Of a stretch of 40,124 bases of DNA, positions 2,604 to 39,212 are shown in pieces. Position 1 is the stretch's first letter; each line of letters starts with the position of its first letter. Source of the DNA: Deltaproteobacteria bacterium (GTDB lineage: Bacteria > Myxococcota > Myxococcia > Myxococcales > SZAS-1); assembly GCA_018266075.1 (NCBI GenBank), contig JAFEBB010000067.1, positions 1 through 40,124 of the forward strand, in the 5' to 3' direction. The position numbers and the translations under genes were made by a program. The notes under the pieces are model-generated. The model was not told the DNA's origin. It did not search any database and saw only the letters and a program-made list of their open reading frames with translations.

Positions 2604-3103
2604 GGCGACCTCGGGGTTTGGGGTTTGGCCCGGGAGATCGCGGATGATGGGCGCCCCCCGGAGCCCGGTTCACAGAGAGTACGAGCGGTTCGTGGGTCAC
2701 GGATTAGAATTGATGGGGCAGGTGGACCCAGAGAATCCCTGGTCGCGGATTTCCTGCGGTACCAACAAGAACCATGGCGGTGGACACAGGTGCAGCACCC
2801 GTCACCTGGGGTGAAGGCGCGGGTCCAGCTAGCGGCTAGAGCAGAATGGGAGGTTCCACACGAATCCATCGGTGTCAGGGCTGCCAACTATCCTCCGTCC
2901 ACAACGCTCGATTGCGCGGACCCACGTGAGGACCAAATGCAGAACGGAGAGCGCGAGTCGGAGTTCCGACCGCAGCTTGCTCAGGTGGTAGAGGCGCAAT
3001 CTGATCCAATCCGTCTGAACCGCTAGCGGGGATGCAGAGAGGATTCACTGCGCAAGATCAAGCGCAGGCTGATAGCGGTACATGGACGAACTCCGGAGGG
3101 CGC
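2604..3103. other. 500-base intergenic region before the defence island
   Basis: It lies between the divergent sigma-54 activator and AbiTii genes. I see no convincing ORF, tRNA, direct repeat or insertion-sequence end. Base composition shifts from GC-rich on the left to more mixed from about 2700 onward, so the left edge of the acquired island probably lies here. It must contain both promoters, but I could not pick out a clear -35/-10 pair. Confidence 0.5.
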
Positions 3104-4168
3104 ATGCGCGAGGCAAAAGAGGCACGACGCGAGGTGATCCTGTCGATCGTCACGGAGCTCGTCGACGCTCTCGAAACGGCGAACCTTCCAATCGAGAAGT
3201 CGCTTATGAAGGCGATGCGACTTGCCCGAGTGATGCGTGACCCCGACGCACAGACCTGGATTCAGCACGAGATTCAGGGATATCCAAAGCAGGACAAGCT
3301 GATGTCTCAGAAGCTTGGTAATTGCGCCAAGTACGCGCTGCGCTTCTATGCAAACGGTGAACTCGATCCAGCGAGCCTTCCCCAAATTGAGGCTGATGTT
3401 CACGCCACCAAAGTCGTAATGGAAAAGATCCAGGTGCCTGCGCCGCGTGAGAGCGTCGCAAACTTTCTTGAGTCTCGAGCCACAAACGACGTGATCGACC
3501 ATGCGATGACTGCATTGACTAATGCGCGTACGGCTCACACCAATGCTGTTCACCGTTTCCACCGACTGGTCGGATCACTGCATCAGTGGGCGAGCGACGT
3601 CCTGATTTCATTGGAATTTGATGGCGTGACAGAGACAATGTTTGAGGAGTCGCGCCGCCAAGTCGAAGAATTCGTGCGCATCGCTTGCCCAAAGGCGGCT
3701 CATCAGTTGGTAGCTGCAGAGGAGCGGCTCGCGAACGGGGACCCCGAGTCGCTCTCAGCTGCGCTCACTTCATGCAGACGATTGTTCATGAGCGTGGCCG
3801 ATGCTGTGTTTCCGGCTACCGACCAACCCTACGTTGATGGGTCCGGAAAGAAGCGGAAGGTCGATGAGGGATCGTACAAGAATCGGCTGCTTGCATTCTT
3901 CGAGGGCGCGACGAAGAGTGACTCAACTAAAGCAATGTTGAGCGCTCAGCTCGAACAAACTGCTGCACGAGTCGATGCGGCCTATGACCTGTCCTGTAAG
4001 GGCGTTCACGCGGACGTCGACTCCTCAGAGGCGCGGCTTGCCATGATGGAGACGTACTTGCTGATAGCCGAAGTCGCTCGGCTCGCGCGGCAACAAGGCG
4101 CTCTCGCGAACCGTAGCGACGTCGGTCCCACGAATCCCTCTGGCCCCTCGTCGAAGCCCGCCGCATAG
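3104..4168 (+). CDS. AbiTii-domain protein, putative abortive-infection factor
   Basis: The ATG at 3104 is chosen because GGAGGG at 3095-3100 sits just before it; the product is 354 residues. Residues about 30-61 match the AbiTii family of predicted abortive-infection proteins: SLMKAMRLARVMRDPDAQTW then a HEIQGYP turn. The middle is helical. The C-terminal third has a KGVHADV motif at 299-305 followed by a helix (SEARLAMMETYLLIAEVARL), which I recall as common in these proteins; its R/K...H layout resembles a HEPN-like fold. No signal peptide or membrane segment is seen. The AbiTii name comes from comparative genomics; the activity is unknown. The gene is AT-richer than its surroundings (31 G/C in the 60 bases 3301-3360) and converges on the REase-like/RusA-like pair, which suggests a horizontally acquired defence island. 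Confidence 0.75.
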   Translation: MREAKEARREVILSIVTELVDALETANLPIEKSLMKAMRLARVMRDPDAQTWIQHEIQGYPKQDKLMSQKLGNCAKYALRFYANGELDPASLPQIEADVHATKVVMEKIQVPAPRESVANFLESRATNDVIDHAMTALTNARTAHTNAVHRFHRLVGSLHQWASDVLISLEFDGVTETMFEESRRQVEEFVRIACPKAAHQLVAAEERLANGDPESLSAALTSCRRLFMSVADAVFPATDQPYVDGSGKKRKVDEGSYKNRLLAFFEGATKSDSTKAMLSAQLEQTAARVDAAYDLSCKGVHADVDSSEARLAMMETYLLIAEVARLARQQGALANRSDVGPTNPSGPSSKPAA

Positions 4169-4293
4169 AGAATCGCGTATAGATCGGCCTAGAGGCGCCA
4201 ACACCAGGAATAGGGCAGAGCTCGCCGCGCAAGTTTCGGCGCCCTCTTTCGAGAATCCTGCCGGGCCAAGCTGCAGACAACCCAAAGGAGCAT

Positions 4294-5541
4294 CTAGTTA
4301 TTGATAATTAGCTTGAGAGGCCGCGTTGAGGTGGGGAGAGCCGCGATTTGACCAGCGGTGTCCAAGCGCCTCGCGCTAGCCTCCTCAGCTTCTTTGACTA
4401 GGAATCCGTTCGCATCTGCGGTCGCATCAAGCTGAAATTGCCGTGTGTAGTCAACGCCATCTGCGCGGATGCGAATGCGCACTCGCAACACCTGGCTCGG
4501 TAGTCTCCAGTCTGGATGTTGGAACTCGGGGTACGCGTAGCTGTTCGGCGTAAATCCCCAAGCGCCGCTTCCTTCAATTCTTATGGCTATTGCGAGAGTC
4601 TGAGCCTCTCGCCTTGCAAAGTCTTGAATTTCCCCCTGCGGGACTAGTGAGGGGTTGAGTAAAAGTACAAGTTTGCCGTCGCCCCCAAGAAAAGGTGAAG
4701 TTGGCTCAGGTGCCGAGGACCATCGTCCAGACATCTCTCGACCCTCAAAAAGAGTCCTGTCCTTGTCATCGAAAAATGAAACCAGTGCTCTCACTCTGGC
4801 GACGTAAGGGCCGTTGTTTAAGACAACGATGTGGGCAATTTGCATCTTTCCATCTGGGCTGCCAGCAGTATTTCCGGGTTCAAGTTCAATGGGTGTCCAA
4901 AGGGCCCGAGCCTGGCGCTGTTCGTTTCCCGGCGTTGACGTGTCTCGAACCAACATTTCGCCGATAGAGAGCGGATCGACGGGGAACTGAACCTTCTCGC
5001 TTCCCTGTGGCGCTAAGCCGTGTGTGGCCCTGTTTCTTTCTCCTGAGAGAATTCGAAGAGTCTCTTCCTCTTGTGGTGTCACCAAGCCTTTCGCGGCGAG
5101 TGCCTGAATGCTCGCGCCGAGACCTAGTTTTGGGAGGCTCGTTCTGTCGGTGTAGGCCAAAGCGAACCGCGCTGCTGCTTCTAGGGCTGACGCCGCTACC
5201 TGTACGAAAGCCCAATATGGCTCCCGGATGCGGTTCGCTTCCTCGAGTAGAGCCAGGATCCGTTCTCGGGAGAGAACCTCTAGATCCTCAGTTCCGGCGT
5301 CGTTGGTGACGACGATTGAGAATCGCCATCCTCTTCGGGCCGCAATTTCCGCGAGTCGCTTCAGAGGAGTCGCATCGCGGGCAGTTGCCGACCGAATAGC
5401 GATCAAGACTGTTTCTGTGCCTCTCCGAGCGATCAGGTCCGCCCGCAAGCCATCATCAAGGTCGGCGTCGCGCTCTATAGAGTAGCCTTCTTTCTCGTAT
5501 TTAGTTGCAAGCTCGGCCAATCGCCCCTGTTCACTCTTCAC
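4294..5541 (-). CDS. Fusion of degenerate REase-like domain, HEPN-like domain and beta-rich C-terminus
   Basis: 415 residues starting at a GTG that overlaps the stop of the RusA-like gene (GTGA); GGAGG precedes it at suitable spacing. Residues 1-100 look like an AHJR-type restriction-endonuclease-like fold: helix LAELATKYEKEGYSIERD, acidic GLRADLIARR (D35), then VLIAIRSA. The usual E-x-K of the PD-(D/E)xK site falls on A48-I49-R50, so nuclease activity is probably lost or altered. Residues about 100-180 are helical and end in GERNRATHGL, an R169-x4-H174 motif like that of HEPN ribonucleases. Residues about 190-415 are beta-rich (Ig-like by eye) and not recognised. I infer a sensor/effector pairing, possibly RNase-type toxicity. 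The A/T-rich composition matches its two island neighbours. Confidence 0.7.
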   Translation of the reverse strand: MKSEQGRLAELATKYEKEGYSIERDADLDDGLRADLIARRGTETVLIAIRSATARDATPLKRLAEIAARRGWRFSIVVTNDAGTEDLEVLSRERILALLEEANRIREPYWAFVQVAASALEAAARFALAYTDRTSLPKLGLGASIQALAAKGLVTPQEEETLRILSGERNRATHGLAPQGSEKVQFPVDPLSIGEMLVRDTSTPGNEQRQARALWTPIELEPGNTAGSPDGKMQIAHIVVLNNGPYVARVRALVSFFDDKDRTLFEGREMSGRWSSAPEPTSPFLGGDGKLVLLLNPSLVPQGEIQDFARREAQTLAIAIRIEGSGAWGFTPNSYAYPEFQHPDWRLPSQVLRVRIRIRADGVDYTRQFQLDATADANGFLVKEAEEASARRLDTAGQIAALPTSTRPLKLIINN

Positions 5542-6218
5542 GGGAGGACCTCCGGACTAAACTCTGAAGTCACAAAGATGTATACGAATTCAGCCGGACC
5601 ATCGCCAGAGAGCGCCATGTCCAGGGCGTCTGCAAGACGCTCAGTGGCTCGTTCGATCCTGGCAATATCGTTCTTTTTCCATTCAATGCGGCGCAGGTGG
5701 ATGTCCTTTACTTGGTTGTCATTGAACAGGACCTTTCGACTGTCACAAAGAGCGTCGAGAATGGGCTTGGCGATGTTGTCGAGGTCGCCATCCGTGTCAC
5801 CCCAATCCTCGCAAAGATGAACAATTCGAATCGATAGATCCACAAATTGAATGGATTCCGTTTCCGAATCTATGTCTCGCTTTGCAGCCTCGATGACCTG
5901 CTTCTTCCAGGCGTCGCGACCTCTTGGGGCCGCCTGGAGGGACCGGGGAGTTCCCACCACTATTATCTCTCTAGTCTCAGGTGGGGGCGAGGATGGAGCC
6001 CGAACGACTGACGGGGTGGGTGGTACGGCTGGGGATGGTTCTCCCTGTGTCTTGGCTAGAGCGATCGGTGATGGGTGAGGTTCCGCAGCTACGGAGGAAG
6101 GCGCGGAAGCCGACTTGGGCTCAGTAGGGCTTGGGTTCTGGGCCGATCCGACGATGCCCGAAAAAGTGCCGGCTGCGATTTCGATGACGCGCATCAAGAA
6201 AGCCCAGACACGTGTCAC
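5538..6218 (-). CDS. RusA-family Holliday-junction-resolvase-like protein with N-terminal extension
   Basis: The GTG at 6218 is preferred over the TTG at 6230 because GGGAG lies five bases before it, giving 226 residues. The C-terminal half (about 85-205) is RusA-like: the opening GTPRSLQAAPRGRDAWKKQV is typical of the fold, and the catalytic cluster is present as D145-L-D147-N with K151, plus D167 in LFNDNQVKDIHLRR. RusA enzymes are dimeric, metal-dependent nucleases cleaving four-way DNA junctions. The first 25 residues are hydrophobic with a few charges (possible membrane or amphipathic anchor), followed by a Pro/Ser/Ala-rich linker to about residue 80, both unusual for RusA. The four-base overlap with the next gene implies coupled translation. 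RusA is usually phage-borne, but no other phage gene is seen here. Confidence 0.75.
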   Translation of the reverse strand: MTRVWAFLMRVIEIAAGTFSGIVGSAQNPSPTEPKSASAPSSVAAEPHPSPIALAKTQGEPSPAVPPTPSVVRAPSSPPPETREIIVVGTPRSLQAAPRGRDAWKKQVIEAAKRDIDSETESIQFVDLSIRIVHLCEDWGDTDGDLDNIAKPILDALCDSRKVLFNDNQVKDIHLRRIEWKKNDIARIERATERLADALDMALSGDGPAEFVYIFVTSEFSPEVLP

Positions 6219-6405
6219 GACGGCTCCCAACGAGAATCGCAGACGCAGCTGTTCCCGAACCGAGAACTGCTGCCAAATGACTGTAGCTTACTCGGCGTTG
6301 GCGGGTTCATGCGGTAGAAGCTCGTCCACGACGTGACCTTGGCCACGAACGGGTGGAACGCCCCCGCGCCCGCTACCGCGCGCACGATCGTGCGATGCTT
6401 CCCGA

Positions 6406-7818
6406 ATGCGCACACGACTCGCGATCGGGCTCGGACTGGCGATGTTGTTCGGCTGCGGTTCGAATTCCGCATCGACCTCCGCGTCGTCGACATCTTCGGG
6501 CTCCGGAACGAGCTCCCTCGGCGCAAGCGGCGCCTCGACCGGAACCACCGGGACGCACGGCAGCTCGACCTCCACCTCCGGCACGTCGTCGACATCTTCG
6601 GGCTCCGGAACGGGCTCCATCGGCGCGAGCAGCTCCTCCACCGGGACCACCGGGACGCACGGCAGCTCGACCTCCACCTCCGGCACGTCGTCGACCACTT
6701 CGGGCTCGACGTCTTCGGGAACGTCCTCGTCGACGTCGGGCACTTCATCGACCTCGGGCACCAGCGGCAGCAACCTCTGGGTGACCGGCTACTACGTCGG
6801 CTGGGAAGCGCAGACCTACCCGGTGAACGTGGTCGACTTCGCGGCGATGAGCCACGTGGTGATCGGCCCGGTCATCCCGCAGGCCGACGGCTCGCTCGAC
6901 ACCACCTTCAGCATCGACGCCACCAGCGGTCCGCAGTGGGCCAGCTCCGCCAGCACCGCGGCCCACGCCGCCGGCGACCACGTGCTGCTCTGGGTGGGCG
7001 GCGCCGATTCGGCGTCGGGCTTCGAAGGCGCCACCTCGAGCGCCAACCTGAGCGCCTTCGTGAACGCGCTGCTCGCGGCGATGCAGACCACCGGCGCCGA
7101 GGGCGTGGACCTCGACTGGGAGCCCATCCCGACCAGCGACGAGGCGTCGTTCCTCGCGTTGCTGCAAGCCCTCCGCGCCGCCGCGCCCAACGCGATCCTC
7201 ACCATGCCGGTGGGCGCGCTGAACATGAACATCGACACGGTCGACGGCTTCTACGTGAGCGCGTCGGGCATCGTCGATCAGATGAACATCATGAGCTACG
7301 GCGTGGCCGGCGCGTGGTCGGGCTGGGAGAGCTGGCACTCCTCGCCGCTCTCCGGCGAGTCGCCGAGCACCCCGGTCAGCATCGACACCTCGGTGACCGC
7401 GTACGAGAACGCCGGCGTGCCCGCGTCCAAGCTCGGCATCGGCGTCGGGTTCTACGGGCTCTGCTACACGCCGCCGGTCACCGGTCCCAAGCAGGCGCTG
7501 AACGGCTCGAGCATCCCCGCGTCGGACGGCACCATGAGCTACACGAACATTATGGAGAGCTACTACGACGCCTCGGCTGCCCAGTGGGATGACGTGGCGC
7601 AGGTTCCGTACTTGAGCTTCGCGTCGGCCACCGGCCCGGCGGGGTGCTCGTACATCTCCTACGACGACGCGCAATCGATCGCCGCCAAGGCGAGCTACGT
7701 GAAGTCATCGGGGCTCGGCGGGGTCATCGTCTGGGAGATCGCCGAGGGCTACTTGCCCAACGCCGCGTCAGGGGGCCGCGACCCGCTGATGGAGGCGATG
7801 CGCACCGGCTTCCGTTGA
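6406..7818 (+). CDS. Stalked lipoprotein with GH18 (chitinase-like) catalytic domain
   Basis: 470 residues. MRTRLAIGLGLAMLFGCG is a lipoprotein signal with the lipid-anchored Cys at about 17. Residues about 20-122 are a Ser/Thr/Gly linker containing two copies of a 34-residue unit. The remainder is a glycoside hydrolase family 18 barrel: WVTGYYVGW strand, GVDLDWEP with D235, D237 and catalytic E239, the MNIMSYG strand and a final GLGGVIVWEIAEGY strand. GH18 enzymes cleave chitin or peptidoglycan-like GlcNAc polymers by substrate-assisted catalysis; the second-shell DxDxE residues are intact, so activity is plausible. The enzyme would sit on the outer surface of the cell. No clear ribosome-binding site precedes the ATG. 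The gene's 3' end is duplicated downstream several times. Confidence 0.88.
   Translation: MRTRLAIGLGLAMLFGCGSNSASTSASSTSSGSGTSSLGASGASTGTTGTHGSSTSTSGTSSTSSGSGTGSIGASSSSTGTTGTHGSSTSTSGTSSTTSGSTSSGTSSSTSGTSSTSGTSGSNLWVTGYYVGWEAQTYPVNVVDFAAMSHVVIGPVIPQADGSLDTTFSIDATSGPQWASSASTAAHAAGDHVLLWVGGADSASGFEGATSSANLSAFVNALLAAMQTTGAEGVDLDWEPIPTSDEASFLALLQALRAAAPNAILTMPVGALNMNIDTVDGFYVSASGIVDQMNIMSYGVAGAWSGWESWHSSPLSGESPSTPVSIDTSVTAYENAGVPASKLGIGVGFYGLCYTPPVTGPKQALNGSSIPASDGTMSYTNIMESYYDASAAQWDDVAQVPYLSFASATGPAGCSYISYDDAQSIAAKASYVKSSGLGGVIVWEIAEGYLPNAASGGRDPLMEAMRTGFR
6482..6685 (+). repeat. Two tandem 102-bp units in the GH18 linker
   Basis: The sequence beginning CGTCGTCGACATCTTCGGGC at 6482 recurs at 6584 and begins a third time at 6686, giving two 102-bp (34-codon) units in frame. 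They encode the GTTGTHGSSTSTSGTS portion of the stalk. Such in-frame repeats let the linker change length by slippage or recombination. Confidence 0.85.
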
Positions 7819-7857
7819 GGGCGCGTCGGCACGATCAGCCGCTCGGCAGGCTGCACA

Positions 7858-8064
7858 CTAGAGATAGGCCGCCTGGCCGGTCGCTTCGTCGACGTGTACG
7901 ACCATCGGTCCATCGAGGATGTGGCCCTGTTTATCTCTTCGCTCGAACACAACAGCCCAATAACCGGGCCTTCGACGGGCGCCAAGCATCCTAAGCGGCC
8001 AGCTCGGGTCTGCATCTTTGGCCACGAATCGCTCGGCGATTTCACACGCCTCGCTTTCGGTCAT
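7858..8064 (-). CDS. Small conserved hypothetical protein (68 aa), possibly immunity-like
   Basis: The ATG at 8064 is chosen because GGAGG followed by four bases lies just before it. The product is MTESEACEIAERFVAK... followed by GYWAVVFERRDKQGHILDGPMVVHVDEATGQAAYL (split here only for description). The pattern of an N-terminal helix, a WxVxF strand, then DGPxxVxVDxxTG resembles small single-domain proteins such as Imm35/YrhB-type immunity or PepSY-like modules; I cannot assign one. It lies on the opposite strand between the complete GH18 gene and its truncated copy. Confidence 0.6.
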   Translation of the reverse strand: MTESEACEIAERFVAKDADPSWPLRMLGARRRPGYWAVVFERRDKQGHILDGPMVVHVDEATGQAAYL

Positions 8065-8120
8065 CGGTCCTCCGCCGGTCGCGCGCACGCTTCGAGGATA
8101 GTCGACGTCTGCCAGCTGCG

Positions 8121-8417
8121 TCGGACGGCACCATGAGCTACACGAACATCATGGAGAGCTACTACGACGCCTCGGCTGCCCAGTGGGATGACGTCGCGCA
8201 GGTTCCGTACTTGAGCTTCGCGTCGGCCACCGGCCCGGCCGGCTGCTCGTACATCTCCTACGACGACGAGCAATCGATCGCCGCCAAGGCGACCTACGTG
8301 AAGTCATCGGGGCTCGGCGGCGTCATCGTCTGGGAGATCGCCGAGGGCTACTTGCCCAACGCTGCCTCAGGGGCTCGTGACCCGCTGATGGAGGCGATGC
8401 GCACCAACTTCCGGTGA
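8121..8417 (+). pseudogene. Truncated copy of the GH18 gene 3' end
   Basis: About 297 bases nearly identical to 7522-7818, encoding only the last ~95 residues of the GH18 domain (from SDGTMSYTNIMESYYD to MRTNFR). The catalytic DxDxE part and the signal are missing, so this cannot be an active enzyme. An in-frame ATG at 8133 exists only because it is an internal Met of the parent. Differences such as DDEQ for DDAQ and TNFR for TGFR are a handful, so the duplication is recent or is homogenised by gene conversion. Confidence 0.88.
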
Positions 8418-8483
8418 GGACACGATGTCGACGACGGGGCCGAAGTAGGTGGTTTGCCAATCGGGACTGGAGACCTGCCGCAG

Positions 8484-8942
8484 ATGGACGTCAACGGGTC
8501 GCCGCCCTCGTGGTTCTGGTCGACGCTTGAGTCGGCCCGCCCCAGCCTGCGGCGCTTGGCACGAGTCCTCGAGAATCTCTCAAAGGGCCAGCTCATCGAG
8601 TTCGGGCGCGTCTTCCGAGACGCAGCCGAGGCAATCGTTCCTTACTGGGAAGGGCCTCTCGTCGATGGCATCCAGTTCTCGGAGGACGACACCGAGGATC
8701 TTTGCCACTGGATCGTGGGGCAGGGCCTCGAGACGTGGCAGAGGGCAATCTCGGAACGAGATCTGCAGTTCCTCGCGCGCGAGGCCTGGCAATCGCGCCG
8801 AACGAGTACGGGGCGCTCGACGGGTTGGGATGACGACCTCGACCCGGACAGTTTCCTTGGGAGTCGCTCGATCTTGGGAATGGCCAGCGCCGTATTCGAG
8901 GCAAGATTTGGCGAGTCGCTCTTCGATGCACTCGGGGATTGA
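8484..8942 (+). CDS. DUF4240-like protein
   Basis: 152 residues from the ATG at 8484; a TTG at 8454 would add ten residues but has a poorly spaced box, so the start is uncertain. The layout is that of DUF4240: an opening SWFWSTLESARP helix, a segment KGQLIEFGRVFRDAAEAIVPYW, then a DDTEDLCHWIVGQGLETWQRAI helix carrying the WLIxxG-like motif, and a disordered acidic tail. The family is a small cytosolic one of unknown function, often found near SMI1/KNR4-type immunity genes. It starts about 65 bases after the truncated GH18 copy. Confidence 0.6.
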   Translation: MDVNGSPPSWFWSTLESARPSLRRLARVLENLSKGQLIEFGRVFRDAAEAIVPYWEGPLVDGIQFSEDDTEDLCHWIVGQGLETWQRAISERDLQFLAREAWQSRRTSTGRSTGWDDDLDPDSFLGSRSILGMASAVFEARFGESLFDALGD

Positions 8943-8998
8943 TTGAGTCCTGGTTGTCGCCGCGAGCCTCGCGGCGCTGGCCACTGCGCCGAACCATC

Positions 8999-9898
8999 TC
9001 AGTCCTTGTTCGCTCGATACGCCTGCCACTGCTCCCAGGCGAGCTCCGGATCGAGGTCCGCGTAGCCGCGGGCTCTCTCCATCTCCTGTGCGTCGCGGGG
9101 TTTCATGGCAATGCAAGGGGACTTGTCGCGGAGCTTCTCGAGCTCCTCGCGCGTGAGCGGTCTTCCGTTCTTGGTCTCAACCGCACCCAGCGTTGCAGCA
9201 AGGCTGGGCACGAACACCATGGCGAGCTCGCTGACCTTGCGTGAGGTCCCGCCCGGTTTCCCGAGGCGCCAGACACCGTACGGGTTGAGGCAGATGGAGC
9301 TCGGCGGGTAACCCACGTCGGGCCAGCGCTCGACGACTCGGCGTGGACTGTGTGCATCCGGAGAGAAGGTCTGGCCCGAGAGCAGCAGCGGATCTTCGGC
9401 GAGCTGGTAGACGTTCAGCGTGGTCAGCAACTCCTGCATCTCCGGCGCATCGCCGTGAACGTCCACGCGCGAGTCCGGAAGCGAGAAGGCATGCATGCCG
9501 CACGACTGGACGCTCTCGTGGTCTCCAAGCATCACCACCACCGCGCGATGCCATGAATTTGGGTTGGCCGAGCCCAGCAGCTCGAGCCAGCGGTCGCGCT
9601 CCCAACCGAGCTTCGATTGCTCGACTCGCACGGCCAGCCCGCCGGGAAGCTTCTCGACGAGCGCGAGTGCGTCTTTGCGGCCGGAGGCCAGATCGAAGGG
9701 GCAATAGAGCACCAGGGCGCCCGCCGCTCCGTCGATGGCGACCATTCCCTTCTTGTCGACCGTGCCAAACCCGAAGGCGGCCGCGAAGGACCCATCTCGA
9801 GGGTTTTCAATCCACTCGTTGGGAACGGGCACGTGCTTGGGCTGCTTGGTGCACGGCACGAACAATCGAACGCGTTCGATGGGCTCTTTCTTGGTCAT
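8999..9898 (-). CDS. Conserved hypothetical protein (299 aa)
   Basis: I do not recognise the family. No signal or membrane segment is apparent. The N-terminal half alternates strands and helices (VRLFVPCTK, GALVLYCPFDL, GGLAVRVEQSK, WHRAVVVMLGDH), as in an alpha/beta domain. The middle includes YPPSSICLNPYGVWRLGKPG. The C-terminus has TREELEKLRDKSPCIAMKPR and ends in a helix with YADLDPELAWEQWQAYRANK. Composition is close to the surrounding genome. It stands convergent to the DUF4240-like gene and divergent from the small Cys-rich protein at 9970, with 71 bases between the starts. Confidence 0.65.
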   Translation of the reverse strand: MTKKEPIERVRLFVPCTKQPKHVPVPNEWIENPRDGSFAAAFGFGTVDKKGMVAIDGAAGALVLYCPFDLASGRKDALALVEKLPGGLAVRVEQSKLGWERDRWLELLGSANPNSWHRAVVVMLGDHESVQSCGMHAFSLPDSRVDVHGDAPEMQELLTTLNVYQLAEDPLLLSGQTFSPDAHSPRRVVERWPDVGYPPSSICLNPYGVWRLGKPGGTSRKVSELAMVFVPSLAATLGAVETKNGRPLTREELEKLRDKSPCIAMKPRDAQEMERARGYADLDPELAWEQWQAYRANKD

Positions 9899-9969
9899 TG
9901 CGACACTCGTTTACCGAATAATTGGAACGACGCGTTGCACCCAAGCCGCTTGAACCCATTCGCTCTAGC

Positions 9970-10203
9970 ATGTCAAAGCCTCTGGTCTACCGCCTTGCGC
10001 CACTGATCCTGCTGGGGCTCTGCCACTGCGGATCTTCGATCCACCTCTGCAAGTCGGACCTTCCCGATGGCGGCTGCATCGCGCGGGTCGTGTGTCCCGA
10101 CCAGTCCTGCAAGGCCTTGGAACAGGAATTGGCCGACGACGAGCCCGGAAGACCGAACCCCGCCGCGGTGCAGTGCGTCCACACTGGCGGCGGTTGCGAG
10201 TAG
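9970..10203 (+). CDS. Small Cys-rich exported protein, copy 1
   Basis: 77 residues from the ATG at 9970. MSKPLVYRLAPLILLGLCHC is a short signal sequence ending in two Cys; the lipobox is non-canonical (LGLC or LCHC), so lipidation is uncertain. The mature part is only about 57 residues with six more Cys (HLCKSDLP, GGCIARVVCPDQSCKA, AVQCVHTGGGCE), suggesting a disulphide-stabilised periplasmic or outer-surface domain. A second copy lies at 13448-13702. No family recognised. Confidence 0.65.
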   Translation: MSKPLVYRLAPLILLGLCHCGSSIHLCKSDLPDGGCIARVVCPDQSCKALEQELADDEPGRPNPAAVQCVHTGGGCE

Positions 10204-10223
10204 CGACATGGACGCCGACGCGG

Positions 10224-10297
10224 CGGGCGCGACCCGCTGATGGAGGCGATGCGGACCAACTTCCGTTGACGCCGCATCGGCTCGATCAGCCGCACGA
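10224..10297 (+). pseudogene. GH18 3'-end fragment with downstream flank
   Basis: This stretch matches 7771-7848: GACCCGCTGATGGAGGCGAT, the terminal TTCCGTTGA, and then about 25 bases of the parent's downstream flank (CGATCAGCCGC). Only the last ~14 codons of the GH18 gene are retained. It lies between the Cys-rich protein and the desaturase, on the same strand as the parent. Confidence 0.8.
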
Positions 10298-10418
10298 CCG
10301 CCTCGCGTCGAGGCCCGTGACTGGGGCGTGACCGCGATCGCGTAGTGTGATGCCTTGCCGTCGTCTGGCCCGCTCTGAGCATTGCGATCGGGAAACTCCG
10401 TTCGCGTTGGAGCCTGTG

Positions 10419-11198
10419 ATGTGGGCCATCCTGAGCCTCTTGGTTTTGCACTGGTCGGTGTCGATCTTCGGGCAGTCGTTCTTCCACCACCGCTACGGTG
10501 CGCACCGGATGTTCCAGATGAGCCCGTTCTGGGAGCGGTTCTTCTACGTCTTCACCTTCATCGCCCAGGCGCCGAGCTTCCTGGTGCCGCGCGCGTACGC
10601 GATCTTGCACCGGCAGCACCACGCGTTCTCCGACACCGAGAAGGATCCGCACTCGCCGCTGTTCTGGCCGAACGCGGGCGTGATGATGCTGCAGACCAAG
10701 CACCGCTACGACGCTTACGCGTACAAGCGTGAAGAGCCCGAGGCCCGCTTCGACGGCGGAGTCCCCGAATGGCTGTTCCTCGACAAGCTCTCGCAGCACT
10801 GGGGCACGCGGGTCTTCCTGGGCGGCCTCTTCGTGCTCTTCTACTTGCGCTTCGCGCCAACGCTCTGGTGGTTCCTGCTGCTGCCGATTCACTGGCTGCT
10901 CGGACCGATCCACGGCGCCATTGTGAACTGGTGCGGCCACAAGTACGGCTACGTCAACTACGACAACGGCGACCACTCGAAGAACACGTTGATCTTTGAC
11001 TTCGTCACCTTTGGCGAGCTCTTCCAGAACAACCACCACAAGTTCGGGATGAGCCCCAACTTCGGCGTGCGCTGGTTCGAGCTCGACCCGTGCTATCAGG
11101 TGATGAAGTTGCTCAACCTCGTGGGCATCATCGACATGTCTGGCGCGCAGGTGCCGCGATATCCGCTGGCCCAGGTGGCGCCAGCGACGCCCAAGTAG
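10419..11198 (+). CDS. Membrane fatty-acid (acyl-CoA/acyl-lipid) desaturase
   Basis: 259 residues from the ATG at 10419, chosen because GGAG lies six bases before it; an upstream ATG at 10347 would give an implausible basic leader. Histidine boxes coordinate a di-iron centre: HHRYGAHR at 23-30, HRQHH at 64-68 and NNHH at 204-207. Hydrophobic spans at about 1-20, 38-58 and 130-170 fit the four-helix membrane topology of the desaturase family. It would insert a cis double bond into acyl chains, probably adjusting membrane fluidity; the position of the bond cannot be read from the sequence. The usual C-terminal box of delta-9 enzymes (HNxHH) appears as FQNNHHKF. The gene is monocistronic. Confidence 0.88.
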   Translation: MWAILSLLVLHWSVSIFGQSFFHHRYGAHRMFQMSPFWERFFYVFTFIAQAPSFLVPRAYAILHRQHHAFSDTEKDPHSPLFWPNAGVMMLQTKHRYDAYAYKREEPEARFDGGVPEWLFLDKLSQHWGTRVFLGGLFVLFYLRFAPTLWWFLLLPIHWLLGPIHGAIVNWCGHKYGYVNYDNGDHSKNTLIFDFVTFGELFQNNHHKFGMSPNFGVRWFELDPCYQVMKLLNLVGIIDMSGAQVPRYPLAQVAPATPK

Positions 11199-11295
11199 AA
11201 ATCCCGGGTCGCCGACGTCGCCACCTTGCCCCTACCCCCTGCGCGGCACGGTCGAGACGGTATGCGCGGCGCGTGACAACCCGAATCCGCCCTCT

Positions 11296-11369
11296 CGACG
11301 AGCAATCGATCGCCGCCAAGGCGAGCGACGTGAAGCCATCGGGGCTCGGCGGCGTCATCGTCTGGGAGG
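11296..11369 (+). pseudogene. Internal fragment of the GH18 gene 3' region
   Basis: About 74 bases matching 7667-7740 and 8267-8340: CGACGAGCAATCGATCGCCG through GGCGTCATCGTCTGGGAG. It carries the copy-2-type GACGAGCAATC, so it is closer to the truncated copy at 8121 than to the intact gene. It has lost both flanks and starts and ends abruptly in unrelated sequence, on the same strand as the parent. Confidence 0.82.
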
Positions 11370-11458
11370 AGCCGGCGCCGTGCCCGGCGGTGGCGGTTGT
11401 CTGAACGGCCTCATCCCGCCGCCGGCTCCGAGGAGCACGGCATCGTACTTCCCGAGGG

Positions 11459-12505
11459 TCAGGTCCCCGCGTCGGTGGCGAAGTCGCCGGTGGAAGGCCC
11501 CGAGGCGAAGTCCGTCATCGACGAGGTGCCCGGTCCCTGGAAGCGGCGGAGGATCATGTTCCCGCTCGACGGCGCGCAGGTGAAGTTGGCCAGGACCGGG
11601 TAGCCGCTGGTGTCGAGCCCCAGGTTGGTCGGCGTGCAGCTGACCTCCATGGTGAAGACCGAACCGCTGTTGTCGACGCCGAGGACCTCGATGTCGGCAT
11701 TGCCCGTCGAGCTTCCGCTGAAGCCGGCGGTGAGCGTGAAGTAGATGGTGCCGCCGGTCAGGTTGGGCACCACGTTGTTGCTCAGGGTGCCGCTCGAATC
11801 ACCGGTGAAGGCCACCTGGGCGTTCGACCCGGAGATCGAGAGCCCGTTGGGGAACGACGGGCCGCCGCCGGGCATCTGGGTGATGGTGCCCACGTCGAAC
11901 GAGGCCAGGAACGAGACGTTCTCCGCCACCACGCCGTCGAAGGCATGCGTGTAGGGCGTGCCGTTCACGGTCGTCAGGTTGGAGTTGATGTTGAAGGAGC
12001 CCGAGACGAACGTGCCGTGCGTGGGGCAACCCGCAGCCGGGCAGCTCGAGCCGGAGGAGCCGCTGGAGCCGGAGCTGCTGCCGCTCGACGTCGTGCCGGT
12101 CGAGCCGCTGCTGCTCGAGGTGCCGGTCGAGCCGCTGCTGCTCGAGGTGCCGGTCGAGCTGCTGCTGCTCGACGACGCGCTGCTGCTGCTCGACGAGCCG
12201 CTGCTGCTCGACGACGAAGTGCTGCTGCTCGACGACGAGCCGCTCTCGCTCTGGCAGACATTGTCGACGCAGGTCTGGGAGGCGGTGCACTGGCCGCAGT
12301 TCACGCTTCGGCCGCTGCCGCAGTTGTCGAAGCCGGTGAACACATCGCAGTTCTTGGCGAGCCTGGCGCAGTAGGCCTGATCGGTTTCCTTCTCGCAGCC
12401 ACCGGTCGAGCCGCCGCCGGTGCTGCCGCTGTTGCCGCTGCTGCTGCTGCTGCTCCCACACGCGGCCAAGGCCAGAAGGCCGACCGCCATGAACCGCATC
12501 AACAT
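11459..12505 (-). CDS. Lipoprotein with EGF-like Cys motif and Ser-rich stalk
   Basis: 348 residues from the ATG at 12505 (another in-frame ATG lies at 12499). MLMRFMAVGLLALAACGSS is a lipoprotein signal with lipobox LAAC. Residues about 35-85 hold eight Cys (GGCEKETDQAYCARLAKNCD, NCGQCTASQTCVDNVC), a pattern common in myxobacterial surface lipoproteins. A Ser/Gly stalk of roughly 80 residues follows, then a beta-rich C-terminal domain (about 165-348; GTFVSGSFNINSN, GTIYFTLTAGFSG) that I cannot name. It would stand off the outer membrane. Surface adhesion or binding is a guess. It is divergent from the lipoprotein gene at 12738. Confidence 0.75.
   Translation of the reverse strand: MLMRFMAVGLLALAACGSSSSSSGNSGSTGGGSTGGCEKETDQAYCARLAKNCDVFTGFDNCGSGRSVNCGQCTASQTCVDNVCQSESGSSSSSSTSSSSSSGSSSSSSASSSSSSSTGTSSSSGSTGTSSSSGSTGTTSSGSSSGSSGSSGSSCPAAGCPTHGTFVSGSFNINSNLTTVNGTPYTHAFDGVVAENVSFLASFDVGTITQMPGGGPSFPNGLSISGSNAQVAFTGDSSGTLSNNVVPNLTGGTIYFTLTAGFSGSSTGNADIEVLGVDNSGSVFTMEVSCTPTNLGLDTSGYPVLANFTCAPSSGNMILRRFQGPGTSSMTDFASGPSTGDFATDAGT
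12096..12160 (-). repeat. 27-nt minisatellite encoding the serine stalk
   Basis: Units of 27 bases beginning CCGGTCGAGC start at 12096, 12123 and 12150, the third degenerate. On the minus strand they encode the nine-residue repeat STGTSSSSG. Flanking sequence continues as poly-Ser codons. In-frame slippage here would change stalk length. Confidence 0.75.
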
Positions 12506-12621
12506 GCTCGCCCCGTTGTGTGGAGCGCCCAAGCTACGCTGTTTCCGGCGTCACGTCGCGCCCGAGATTCCCTCGACCCCACCGGCGGGCTGCCTCGAGT
12601 CATCGGGACGCGTCCCGAGAG

Positions 12622-12662
12622 GATGGAGGCGATGCGCACCAACTTCCGTTGACGGGGCGTCG
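12622..12662 (+). pseudogene. Terminal fragment of the GH18 gene
   Basis: About 40 bases, GATGGAGGCGATGCGCACCA then ACTTCCGTTGA and a short flank, equal to the last codons of the GH18 gene (EAMRTNFR, stop). It is the shortest of the four fragments and sits between the divergent lipoprotein genes at 12505 and 12738. Confidence 0.75.
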
Positions 12663-12737
12663 GGAGAAGGCGTCGGGGGATGGGTCCCATTGAAGCTTTT
12701 CTTGCTCCTGCGCTACTCAGCCTCGAAGGAGCTGCGC

Positions 12738-13418
12738 GTGCCCAATCAAGAACGAGCTCATCCCTCCGTGTTTATTCGGCTTCAGCTCGCCGCGATGGCG
12801 CTCGTGTTCACGGCCTGCGCCGGATCCGGCGGCTCGTCGAGCGCGACGGCCAGCACCGGCACGAGCGCCTCGAGCACCTCCGGCACGACGGGTTCTACCG
12901 GCACGGGCACGAGCGGCTCGAGCAGCGGCACCGGCACGAGCGGGTCAGCGACCTCGGGTGCGCCTTTCGCCAGCATCACTCCCGAGGTCATTCCGCAGGC
13001 GTCGGTGTTCGGCTTCGCCATCGGCAATCCGCCCCGGATTGGGATGATTGCCTTTCCTTCTTCCGCGACGTGCGCGGACGCGGCTGCCGCGACCGACGGA
13101 CCGTTCCTCGACATCGAGGTGGACAACGAGACCAGCCCGGGGACTTACGCCGTGGGTGAGAACGGGATGGGAGACGTCCATGCCGCGAACCTGCCCTCTG
13201 CGGATGGGCCGTACTCGTTGATGGGCGGACCAGGGACCATCACCTTGACTCAAATGGGCCCGAACGAAGTCGCGGGCTCCTTCGATGTGCAGATGACCGC
13301 GGTCTACTTCGTTGTCTGCGATGGCGGCTGCGGCATCGACACCGGCTACGATGTCTTCGTGGACGCGGGGCGCCTCTCGGGTTCGTTCGACCTCCCCGTG
13401 TGCGCAACCGCGTTGTGA
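12738..13418 (+). CDS. Stalked lipoprotein of unknown function
   Basis: 226 residues from the GTG at 12738, with GAAGGAG ending six bases before it. The signal VFIRLQLAAMALVFTACAG carries a lipobox (FTAC). Residues about 30-75 are a Ser/Thr/Gly stalk of the same style as the GH18 lipoprotein. The C-terminal ~150 residues are beta-rich (PEVIPQASVFGFAIGNPPRI, GTYAVGENGMGDVHAANL, GTITLTQMGPNEVAGSFDVQ), with Cys pairs near the end (VVCDGGCG) suggesting disulphides. This is a compact surface domain that I do not recognise. It is followed 30 bases later by the second Cys-rich protein. Confidence 0.75.
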   Translation: MPNQERAHPSVFIRLQLAAMALVFTACAGSGGSSSATASTGTSASSTSGTTGSTGTGTSGSSSGTGTSGSATSGAPFASITPEVIPQASVFGFAIGNPPRIGMIAFPSSATCADAAAATDGPFLDIEVDNETSPGTYAVGENGMGDVHAANLPSADGPYSLMGGPGTITLTQMGPNEVAGSFDVQMTAVYFVVCDGGCGIDTGYDVFVDAGRLSGSFDLPVCATAL

Positions 13419-13447: not shown

Positions 13448-13702
13448 GTGCGCTGGCCTCTGTTCCAACGCGGAGCGCACCTCGCCCGCCGCCTCGCGCC
13501 GCTGATCTTGCTGGGGCTCTGCCACTGCGGAGCTTCGATCCACCTCTGCAAGTCAGCACTTCCCGATGGCGGGTGCGTCGCTCGGGTCACCTGTCCCGAC
13601 CAGTCGTGCAAGGCCTCCGAACAAGAGCTCGCCGACGACGAGCCCGGAAGACCGAACCCCGCTGCGGTGCAGTGCGTACACACAAGCGGCGGCTGCCTGT
13701 AG
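13448..13702 (+). CDS. Small Cys-rich exported protein, copy 2
   Basis: 84 residues from the GTG at 13448, with GGAGG at 13434-13438. From RLAPLILLGLCHCG onward it aligns end to end with the protein at 9970: all eight Cys are conserved, as is the ADDEPGRPNPAAVQCVHT stretch. The two genes match over about 210 bases (9990-10203 and 13489-13702) at very high identity by eye; the N-terminal leader differs. A recent duplication across 3.5 kb is implied. Confidence 0.65.
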   Translation: MRWPLFQRGAHLARRLAPLILLGLCHCGASIHLCKSALPDGGCVARVTCPDQSCKASEQELADDEPGRPNPAAVQCVHTSGGCL

Positions 13703-13751
13703 CGAAAGAGGGTCTTCGACTCGTGGCTCGCGGCTTGGGGCGAATCGCGGG

Positions 13752-16547: not shown

Positions 16548-17301
16548 GTGCCCCACGTCGTCATCCCGCGCGGCGAAGGAAACCCCGTCGACCTGCCGGC
16601 GATCTGCCTGGTCACCGGCGCCACCGAAAACGTGCGCTGGGTGCCGCGAACGCTGCGCTACTCGAGCCCCTGGTGGTTCGTGGTGCTCCTCACGGTGTGC
16701 CTCTCGCCGGGCTTCTTGATCCGCCATTCCCGGCGTGCTCGTGCTGCGCACGCTGCTCGGACACCGCATCGACGTCGAGCTCCCGCTGACCGACGAAGGC
16801 GAACGCATCGCCGCTCGCGGCGAGCTCACCCGCCTTCTCTGCTTCGGCGCGGTGATGCTGAGCGCAATCGCACTGCCCGTCTCGATTCTCTGGGATGCCC
16901 ACGGCGACAAAAGTCTCGCGCCGATCGTCGTTGCATTGGTGAGCCTCGGCCTGTCCCTGGTCGCAACGTCGATCCAGTCGCTCAGCAGCGGAGAAAAGCG
17001 CGTTGGCGTGCGCGCCATGGACAAGGTCCAGGTCACGCTCTCCGTGCCGAGCGACGCAGCCGCCACGGCCTTCCAGGAGCGACTCCACGGCTGGAAGCCC
17101 GAGCTCGAGGCGGCCTGGAGCACCCGTCGTGCCCCCGAGCCCCGCGACTGCCCCAATCATCCCGGCACGCTCGCCGGATGGATCTGCGGCCGCTGCGGCA
17201 GCTTCGCCTGCGACGCGTGTCTCGAGCGAATTCGCCCGGACGCCATGCCGCTCTGCCGAAGCTGTCTTGCCCGGCGGCCGGCCGGCGTTGCGTCACGGTA
17301 G
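16548..17301 (+). pseudogene. Frameshifted membrane/zinc-finger protein, copy 1
   Basis: From the GTG at 16548 the frame encodes VPHVVIPRGEGNPVDLPAIC and then YSSPWWFVVLLTVCLSPGFL, as in the downstream paralogue. At about 16719-16721 the frame is lost; the homologous sequence resumes in another frame (AIPGVLVLRTLLGHRIDVEL) and runs to the stop at 17301, ending in the Cys-rich CPNHPGTLAGWICGRCGSF region. Alignment with copy 2 is explained by a two-base loss or one-base gain. The rest of the sequence is well preserved, so the lesion is recent, a sequencing error, or a programmed shift (no slippery sequence is seen). Confidence 0.75.
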
Positions 17302-17323
17302 GCAGCAACGCTTTGATGATCGC

Positions 17324-18064
17324 GTGCCCCACGTCGTCATCCCCCGCGGCGAAGGAAACTCCGTCGACCTGCCGGCGATCTGCCTGGTCACCGGCGCGAC
17401 GGAGAACGTGCGCTGGGTGCCGCGAGCGTTGCGCCACTCGAGCCCGTGGTGGTTTCTCGCGCTCGCGGTGACCTGCATCAATCCCGGATTGATGCTCCTC
17501 GCCCTGCCGGCCATGCTCGCCATCCGCGTGCTCACCGGAAAGCGCATGGAGGTCGAGCTCCCGCTGACCGACGAGGGCGAACGACTGTCCGCGCGCGGCG
17601 AGCTCATCCGCAACTTTGCCTTCGGCGCGGTCATGGCGACCGTGATCACCCTGCCGTTCGTGATCGTCTGGGCCGTCAACAACGACAAGGGGCGCCTGCC
17701 GATCAACGCGAGCCTGCTCGCCTTCGGCGCGTCCATCGTGGCGGCGATGGTGCAGTCGGCCACTTCGGGCCGCCAGCGCATCTGGGTGCGCAGCATCAAC
17801 AAAGCGGGCGCCGACGTGGCCATCCCCAGCTCCGAGGCGGCGGGCATGTTCTACAAGCGCCTCCACGGCTGGACACCCGAGCTCGACGCGCCCTGGAGCA
17901 CCCGCCGCACGGACGAGCTCCGCGATTGCCCCTCGCACGCCGGAGTGCCTGCACGCTGGGTCTGCGGCCGCTGCGGCCGCTTCGCCTGCAACTCGTGCAT
18001 GGAGCGCGTGCGGCCGGATTCGATGCTGATCTGCCGCTCATGCCTGGCGCGGCGCACCGGCTGA
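17324..18064 (+). CDS. Membrane protein with C-terminal zinc-finger-like domain, copy 2
   Basis: 246 residues from the GTG at 17324, the position equivalent to copy 1. An N-terminal cytosolic segment (PRGEGNSVDLPAICLVTGAT) precedes hydrophobic spans at about 43-70, 100-125 and 130-150. A basic segment follows, and the last ~45 residues hold C...H...C-x2-C...C-x2-C...C-x2-C (CPSHAGVPARWVCGRCGRFA, then CNSCMERVRP and CRSC), a zinc-binding layout resembling a B-box or zinc ribbon. Such fusions recur in myxobacteria; function is unknown. The end is 17 bases before the CorA gene, so they may be cotranscribed. Copies 1 and 2 form a tandem duplication with a 776-base offset. Confidence 0.75.
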   Translation: MPHVVIPRGEGNSVDLPAICLVTGATENVRWVPRALRHSSPWWFLALAVTCINPGLMLLALPAMLAIRVLTGKRMEVELPLTDEGERLSARGELIRNFAFGAVMATVITLPFVIVWAVNNDKGRLPINASLLAFGASIVAAMVQSATSGRQRIWVRSINKAGADVAIPSSEAAGMFYKRLHGWTPELDAPWSTRRTDELRDCPSHAGVPARWVCGRCGRFACNSCMERVRPDSMLICRSCLARRTG

Positions 18065-32529: not shown

Positions 32530-32672
32530 GGAACGGTGATCGTGACTGGTACTCGGTGAGCACGCGCGCGGTTCGCAATTTGGGATTTCGGCTGCCGGGA
32601 TGAGAGCGGTCGGGCAAAGTGGGCTGGACCGTGTGGGACCGCTCACGGTTCACCAGTCACGATCACTGTTCC
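32530..32672. repeat. Inverted-repeat element, copy A
   Basis: A 32-base arm at 32530-32561 (GGAACGGTGATCGTGACTGG...) pairs with 32641-32672 at 27 of 32 positions, with about 80 bases between. The right arm, extended to 32749, matches 38948-39052 in reverse orientation at high identity. With 32391-32793 otherwise ORF-free, this is an intergenic mobile-type or structural repeat just before the RlpA-like gene. Confidence 0.75.
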
Positions 32673-32793
32673 CGAAGCACCTGCATCTGATTTGTGGAAC
32701 CGGGGAAACCCGAGCACCCCGGGCCCGCCGGCGCCCCGACGGGCGACGGCCTGGGATGCAATCGATGGCCCACTCGCGCGTATCCTCGGGACC

Positions 32794-38693: not shown

Positions 38694-39212
38694 CGTTCTG
38701 TCCTCCGGTCCTCCGGTAGCGTTCGGCTGCCGGGTCCGCGCCGGTGAGCGCGGAAGGTATTAAAAGTCCTGTTTCAATCCAGTCGTGACCGGGCTTGCTT
38801 CACCCGGGTGTCTGCAAAACGGGCGGCGACTGTAGTGGGCCCATGCGACGGGTGTCAAGCCACGCCCCGATTAAGATCAGGATCAGCAACCGAGGGTCGA
38901 CACCAGCTTGGGGCAAGAGGTTCCAGCTGTCGAGAGGGTCCCTGGGGCCGCCGCCCGGGGCGTCGGCGGGCCCGGGGCGCTCGGGTTTCCCTACTTGCCT
39001 CGGCAGATGCAGGTGCTTCGGGAACGGTGATCGTGACTGGTGAACCGTGAGCCGCTCACCGAGCACCCATCACGTTCACGGTTTCCGAGGCACCTGAGCG
39101 CCCGAGCGCCCCAGGGGAACCTGCAGGAGCCCGCCGTAAAATTGCTGGTTTGCTCAACGCGATGCTAGCGTCGCGGACTTCGGGGGATTTTTCGCCGCCG
39201 GAGGACCACGGC
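38694..39212. promoter_or_regulatory. 519-base divergent intergenic region
   Basis: It separates the TolQ-type start (38693) from the GspE-N gene (39213). An AT-rich patch (TATTAAAAGTCC) at about 38758-38769 is a plausible promoter for the TolQ operon; no -35 is clear. The right part holds the inverted-repeat element (copy B). No ORF is convincing. Confidence 0.45.
38948..39086. repeat. Inverted-repeat element, copy B
   Basis: Arm 39021-39052 (GGAACGGTGATCGTGACTGG...) is imperfectly inverted at 39054-39086, forming a near-continuous cruciform. The arm and its left flank 38948-39020 match 32641-32749 in reverse orientation; the arm itself differs at one of 32 positions. Confidence 0.75.

Follow-up and report, generated by a model that had tools for sequence, protein, structure and literature searches.

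The 3′ end of an intact GH18 (chitinase-like) lipoprotein gene is followed, in the 40,124-nt stretch of DNA analysed here (the window), by four partial copies of itself, all lying on the strand of the gene and separated by other genes. The reading that we favour, with moderate confidence, is that these copies are remnants of repeated local same-strand duplications of the GH18 3′ end that were subsequently shortened by deletion, with at least one of them (copy B) probably having belonged to a gene that went on working for much of the time since it split from the present one and another (copy C) possibly having accompanied the duplication of a second gene, lip78. The series is real, local, and unusual in number, yet known processes, namely repeated local duplication and deletion, suffice to account for it.

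Four partial copies of the GH18 3′ end at one locus

The product of the source gene consists of a lipoprotein signal followed by a Ser/Thr/Gly-rich linker and a GH18 domain (Pfam PF00704, E = 2.5e-44), and self-comparison showed a 102-nt internal tandem repeat in the linker region (6482–6685). Beside the gene, the block at 3032–6230 has a lower GC content (about 0.56) and contains AbiTii, AHJR-nuclease, and RusA-like matches; it is possibly a defence-type island.

Self-comparison of the window revealed four partial copies of the GH18 3′ end downstream of the gene, designated B to E, all on the + strand and all derived from a single 334-nt block, 7519–7852, designated copy A (Table 1). The BLAST E-values of the copies in this comparison ranged from 1e-109 (B) to about 1e-9 (E), far below chance; the probability that all four would lie on the gene's own strand is 0.06. 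A preliminary description of this DNA had reported four + strand fragments of the GH18 3′ end, and its coordinates proved right within a few bases.

Table 1. Positions in the window of the GH18 gene, the copies of its tail, and the neighbouring genes
Feature	Position	Strand	Details
Intact GH18 (chitinase-like) lipoprotein gene	6406–7818	+	470 aa; source of the fragments = copy A, 7519–7852
Small gene between A and B	7858–8064	−	68 aa; no Pfam match
Copy B	8118–8424	+	94.5% to 7519–7825 over 307 nt; indels 0
Accessory gene between B and C	8454–8942	+	Marginal DUF4240 match; homologues in 0/59 relatives
Accessory gene between B and C	8999–9898	−	Marginal DUF4261 match; homologues in 3/59 relatives
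lip78, small lipoprotein-like gene, first copy	9970–10203	+	78 codons with stop
Copy C	10222–10303	+	84% to 7771–7852 over 82 nt
Fatty acid desaturase between C and D	10347–11198	+	Widespread in the order
Copy D	11296–11368	+	95% to 7665–7737 over 73 nt; 96% to B
Ser-rich lipoprotein gene between D and E	11459–12532	−	357 aa; no Pfam match; GC3 0.94
Copy E	12622–12663 (with probable upstream block, 12573–12663)	+	42 nt, 90% to C
Lipoprotein-like gene after E	12738–13418	+	
lip78, second copy	13489–13705	+	88% to 9990–10206; 5′ end replaced

The four copies differ in content. Copy B comprises the final 300 nt of GH18 with the stop codon, plus about 7 nt, and contains a 94-aa open frame from 8133 in which the signal peptide and the catalytic part are missing. 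Copy C contains the last 48 nt of GH18 and 34 nt of the 3′ flank of the gene. Copy D is an internal piece without the GH18 3′ end; within its 73 nt, it has two non-synonymous changes of its own (Y to D and S to P). The 42 nt of copy E consist of the last 28 nt before the stop codon, the stop codon itself, and 11 nt of 3′ flank. Of nine tests for extension past the fragment ends, the only notable one concerned the region upstream within E: a candidate second block at 12573–12612 is collinear with 7679–7717 (shuffle p = 0.004 as the best of the nine tests, about 0.04 when corrected). Copy E was thus probably longer and has lost an internal segment between 7717 and 7790. All four copies have lost their coding capacity, the first 1.1 kb being absent from each, and D and E are truncated on both sides or internally deleted; the private changes in D and the probable internal deletion in E are signs of decay. 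Directly after copy E, at 12666–12684, lies a dispersed sequence, GAAGGNGTCGGGGGATGGG, that was found at nine places in the genome versus none for a reversed control and is probably an intergenic REP-like repeat.

A whole-genome DNA search with 7519–7860 returned five places, copies A to E, and no others; the five share a strand and span no more than 5.2 kb. The preliminary description had named sharing with unrelated loci as the finding that would turn the fragments into a dispersed repeat; they occurred at this locus only. Since tail copies are absent from the rest of the 7.84-Mb draft genome, the series is not a dispersed repeat, and a MITE reading is disfavoured as well. As a within-genome control, sixty 20-kb stretches from 40 contigs (a 1.2-Mb sample) were examined, and no comparable repeat cluster was present in them. 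They held scattered repeat pairs, several of which resemble intergenic dispersed sequences or repeats internal to genes. Elsewhere in the window, we observed an apparently intergenic inverted repeat pair of 105–111 nt with 86% identity (32641–32751 and 38946–39052) and a tandem duplication of about 740 nt with 72% identity and a spacing of 776–778 nt (16548–18061), upstream of and extending into a CorA-like gene.

Divergence of the copies and duplication of lip78

Over 300 nt, 15 substitutions and no indel separate copies A and B. Ten of these differences lie in the third codon position (p = 0.0085), 10 are synonymous and five non-synonymous, and seven are G↔C changes. If B had evolved free of selection since its split from A, five or fewer non-synonymous differences among the 15 would have a probability of about 0.02, and such a history is disfavoured. 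This coding-like pattern suggests that, during much of the period since the split, B still formed the end of a functional gene, either at this locus or in a donor, and probably lost the first 1.1 kb of that gene only later.

A second gene at the locus, lip78, is also duplicated. A whole-genome search found the lip78 repeat at two places only; its second copy retains an open frame from an upstream GTG, and the pair shows 15 synonymous and 12 non-synonymous differences. The lip78 repeat ends at 10206 and copy C starts 16 nt further on, at 10222, a junction suggesting that C arose as part of a larger segmental duplication. The synonymous divergence of the lip78 pair (15 of about 52 sites) resembles that of the A/C flank (8/34), and both exceed the synonymous divergence of A and B (10/69 sites), although the numbers of sites in all these comparisons are small and any gene conversion between A and B would make the dating less certain. 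As judged from this one junction and these small numbers, a single older duplication that spanned the GH18 tail, lip78, and everything between them could have yielded both pairs. It would require the first copy of the intervening genes to have been replaced later, and what speaks against it is that first copies of the desaturase and lipoprotein genes must then have vanished without a trace.

In the favoured reading, several local same-strand duplications would have taken in the GH18 3′ end, the one that gave rise to B and the older one that may have given rise to C among them, and deletion would later have cut the copies down to remnants that now lie between other genes, several of which are accessory. 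Microhomology-mediated or unequal recombination would be the cause of the duplications. The word GCGTCGG, found at both block ends, was not counted as microhomology, because it is common in the GC-rich window (25 occurrences on the + strand). The copies presumably have no present function.

We infer the order of events, because the closest GH18 homologues are only about 50% identical at best. They belong to other Myxococcota, in which most GH18 homologues were found, and the 59 relatives searched all come from outside the family and genus of the source genome. No close relative showing an intermediate was found among the genomes searched, the 17 relative stretches examined around GH18 contained no similar set of tail fragments, and the relatives shared no conserved GH18 neighbourhood. 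Searches of viral contigs gave no match, and those of phages and plasmids gave only matches below 60% identity.

Alternative origins of the tail series

The alternative that survives best, although we consider it unlikely, is recurrent recombination at the GH18 tail, of the homology-facilitated or insertion-duplication type. Incoming DNA with a related tail and a downstream gene would have been integrated by one homologous crossover, with one extra tail left behind per event. Consistent with this, every fragment is tail-derived, and B, C, and E each lie directly upstream of a + strand gene. At one codon, moreover, B, C, and E share AAC, in contrast to GGC in A, which means that none of the three descends from A as it is today. 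The genes that separate the copies include accessory ones. Genes of defence type (AbiTii and AHJR nuclease) lie upstream of GH18, and the site may therefore tend to acquire genes. Conversely, copy D is internal and lacks the 3′ end, and the desaturase that follows C is widespread in the order and not of a mobile type; in the relatives, its best homologues lie elsewhere than beside GH18. No integrase, transposase, or recombinase was found among the subset of ORFs scanned between the copies. Promoter and terminator scans gave background levels.

We give somewhat less credence to the idea that the GH18 tail has served repeatedly as a landing site, where each gain of a downstream accessory block by recombination in the last 300 nt of the gene left a tail copy, so that B to E would form a layered record of separate gains at this spot. 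In that case, the tails of genes could offer a chronological log of insertions at integrase-free hot spots.

The preliminary description had interpreted the fragments as the decay of ancestral tandem copies. The common strand, the varied ends and divergence of the fragments, and the coding-like divergence of B support decay of duplicated copies, as do the same-strand tandem GH18 pairs of four relatives from other families of the order (in L040 at 8001 and 9545; in G054, G050, and G042 2–3 kb apart), which indicate that tandem duplication of GH18 does occur in the group. The strict form of this reading, in which four full-length tandem GH18 genes decayed, is improbable. Full copies that decayed evenly should leave remnants from every part of the gene, but what survives is confined to the last 334 of 1447 nt, that is, the last 300 nt of the gene and 34 nt of flank; if full-length copies survived uniformly along their length, the probability that C, D, and E all lie inside the block of B is about 0.005 (about 1/200). 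Between the fragments, sensitive searches at the DNA and protein level detected no remnant of the first 1.1 kb of GH18 and returned only low-complexity Ser/Thr/Gly matches, so the supposed full-length copies would have left only tails, with unrelated, intact-looking genes between them. Because all copies are tail-derived at this p value, partial duplications containing the tail fit better than the decay of four genes. Partial duplications that include the 3′ end, or recombination at this end, would be needed for at least some of the copies.

It is very unlikely that strain variants of one tail were joined into one metagenomic contig during assembly. The genome is a draft of 166 contigs with 96.6% completeness and is possibly metagenomic, but the four copies differ in their ends and divergence, each lies in a distinct, unique context with intact-looking genes, and D and E have each decayed in ways of their own.

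A defined mobile or repeated element with the GH18 tail as its repeat (an integron cassette, a MITE-like or att-site element, or a retroelement) is the least probable origin: the GH18 3′ end is present in B, C, and E, and all three are truncated on the 5′ side, but D lacks that end, a common end is absent, the rest of the genome contains no copies, the Rfam search gave no match, neither a recombinase nor a reverse transcriptase turned up in the scanned ORFs, and there were no adenine-only differences of the diversity-generating (DGR) type. The differences between copies lie mainly in third positions and are mainly G↔C changes, and the Pfam-scanned ORFs included no reverse transcriptase; the DGR candidate was rejected. 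The retroelement candidate was likewise rejected and the integron candidate disfavoured, as what was scanned contained no supporting gene or pattern. For an integron cassette array in particular, there was no integrase among the scanned ORFs of the window, although one may sit outside it.

Comparison with known systems

In the favoured reading, the process is ordinary and the series of debris that it left is unusually well preserved, providing a clear example of local duplications being whittled down. It also gives reason for caution, since a short piece of a gene's tail in the vicinity of that gene is not necessarily a regulatory or mobile element.

Polymorphic toxin loci contain orphan toxin tails with immunity genes. 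The GH18 locus is similar in that the 3′ ends of one gene are repeated with small accessory genes between them; it differs in that the repeated part is the end of the GH18 domain and not a variable toxin tip, and the small genes are only putatively of immunity type: for the one between A and B, a possible resemblance to immunity-type proteins drew no match from the models. Homology-facilitated illegitimate recombination, or insertion-duplication, would deposit part of the anchor gene a second time, next to imported DNA. The likeness to our locus lies in such partial anchor copies, and the difference is that no imported block with a defined edge can be demonstrated here. The term is used in PMC6382021.

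Bacterial genes can be duplicated in tandem via short homology or unequal recombination, as in the example that we take from PMC11111574. That process likewise yields local same-strand copies and would make the starting material for a series like this one, whereas the copies described here are non-contiguous, mostly lack the 5′ part, and include no intact duplicate. Prokaryotic pseudogenes include remnants of duplicated or failed transferred genes, according to a survey (PMC522871). In comparison with the remnants described there, those of GH18 are similarly truncated and decaying while an intact copy stays in the genome, but they form a set of four same-strand copies of one tail within 5 kb, with intact genes interleaved.
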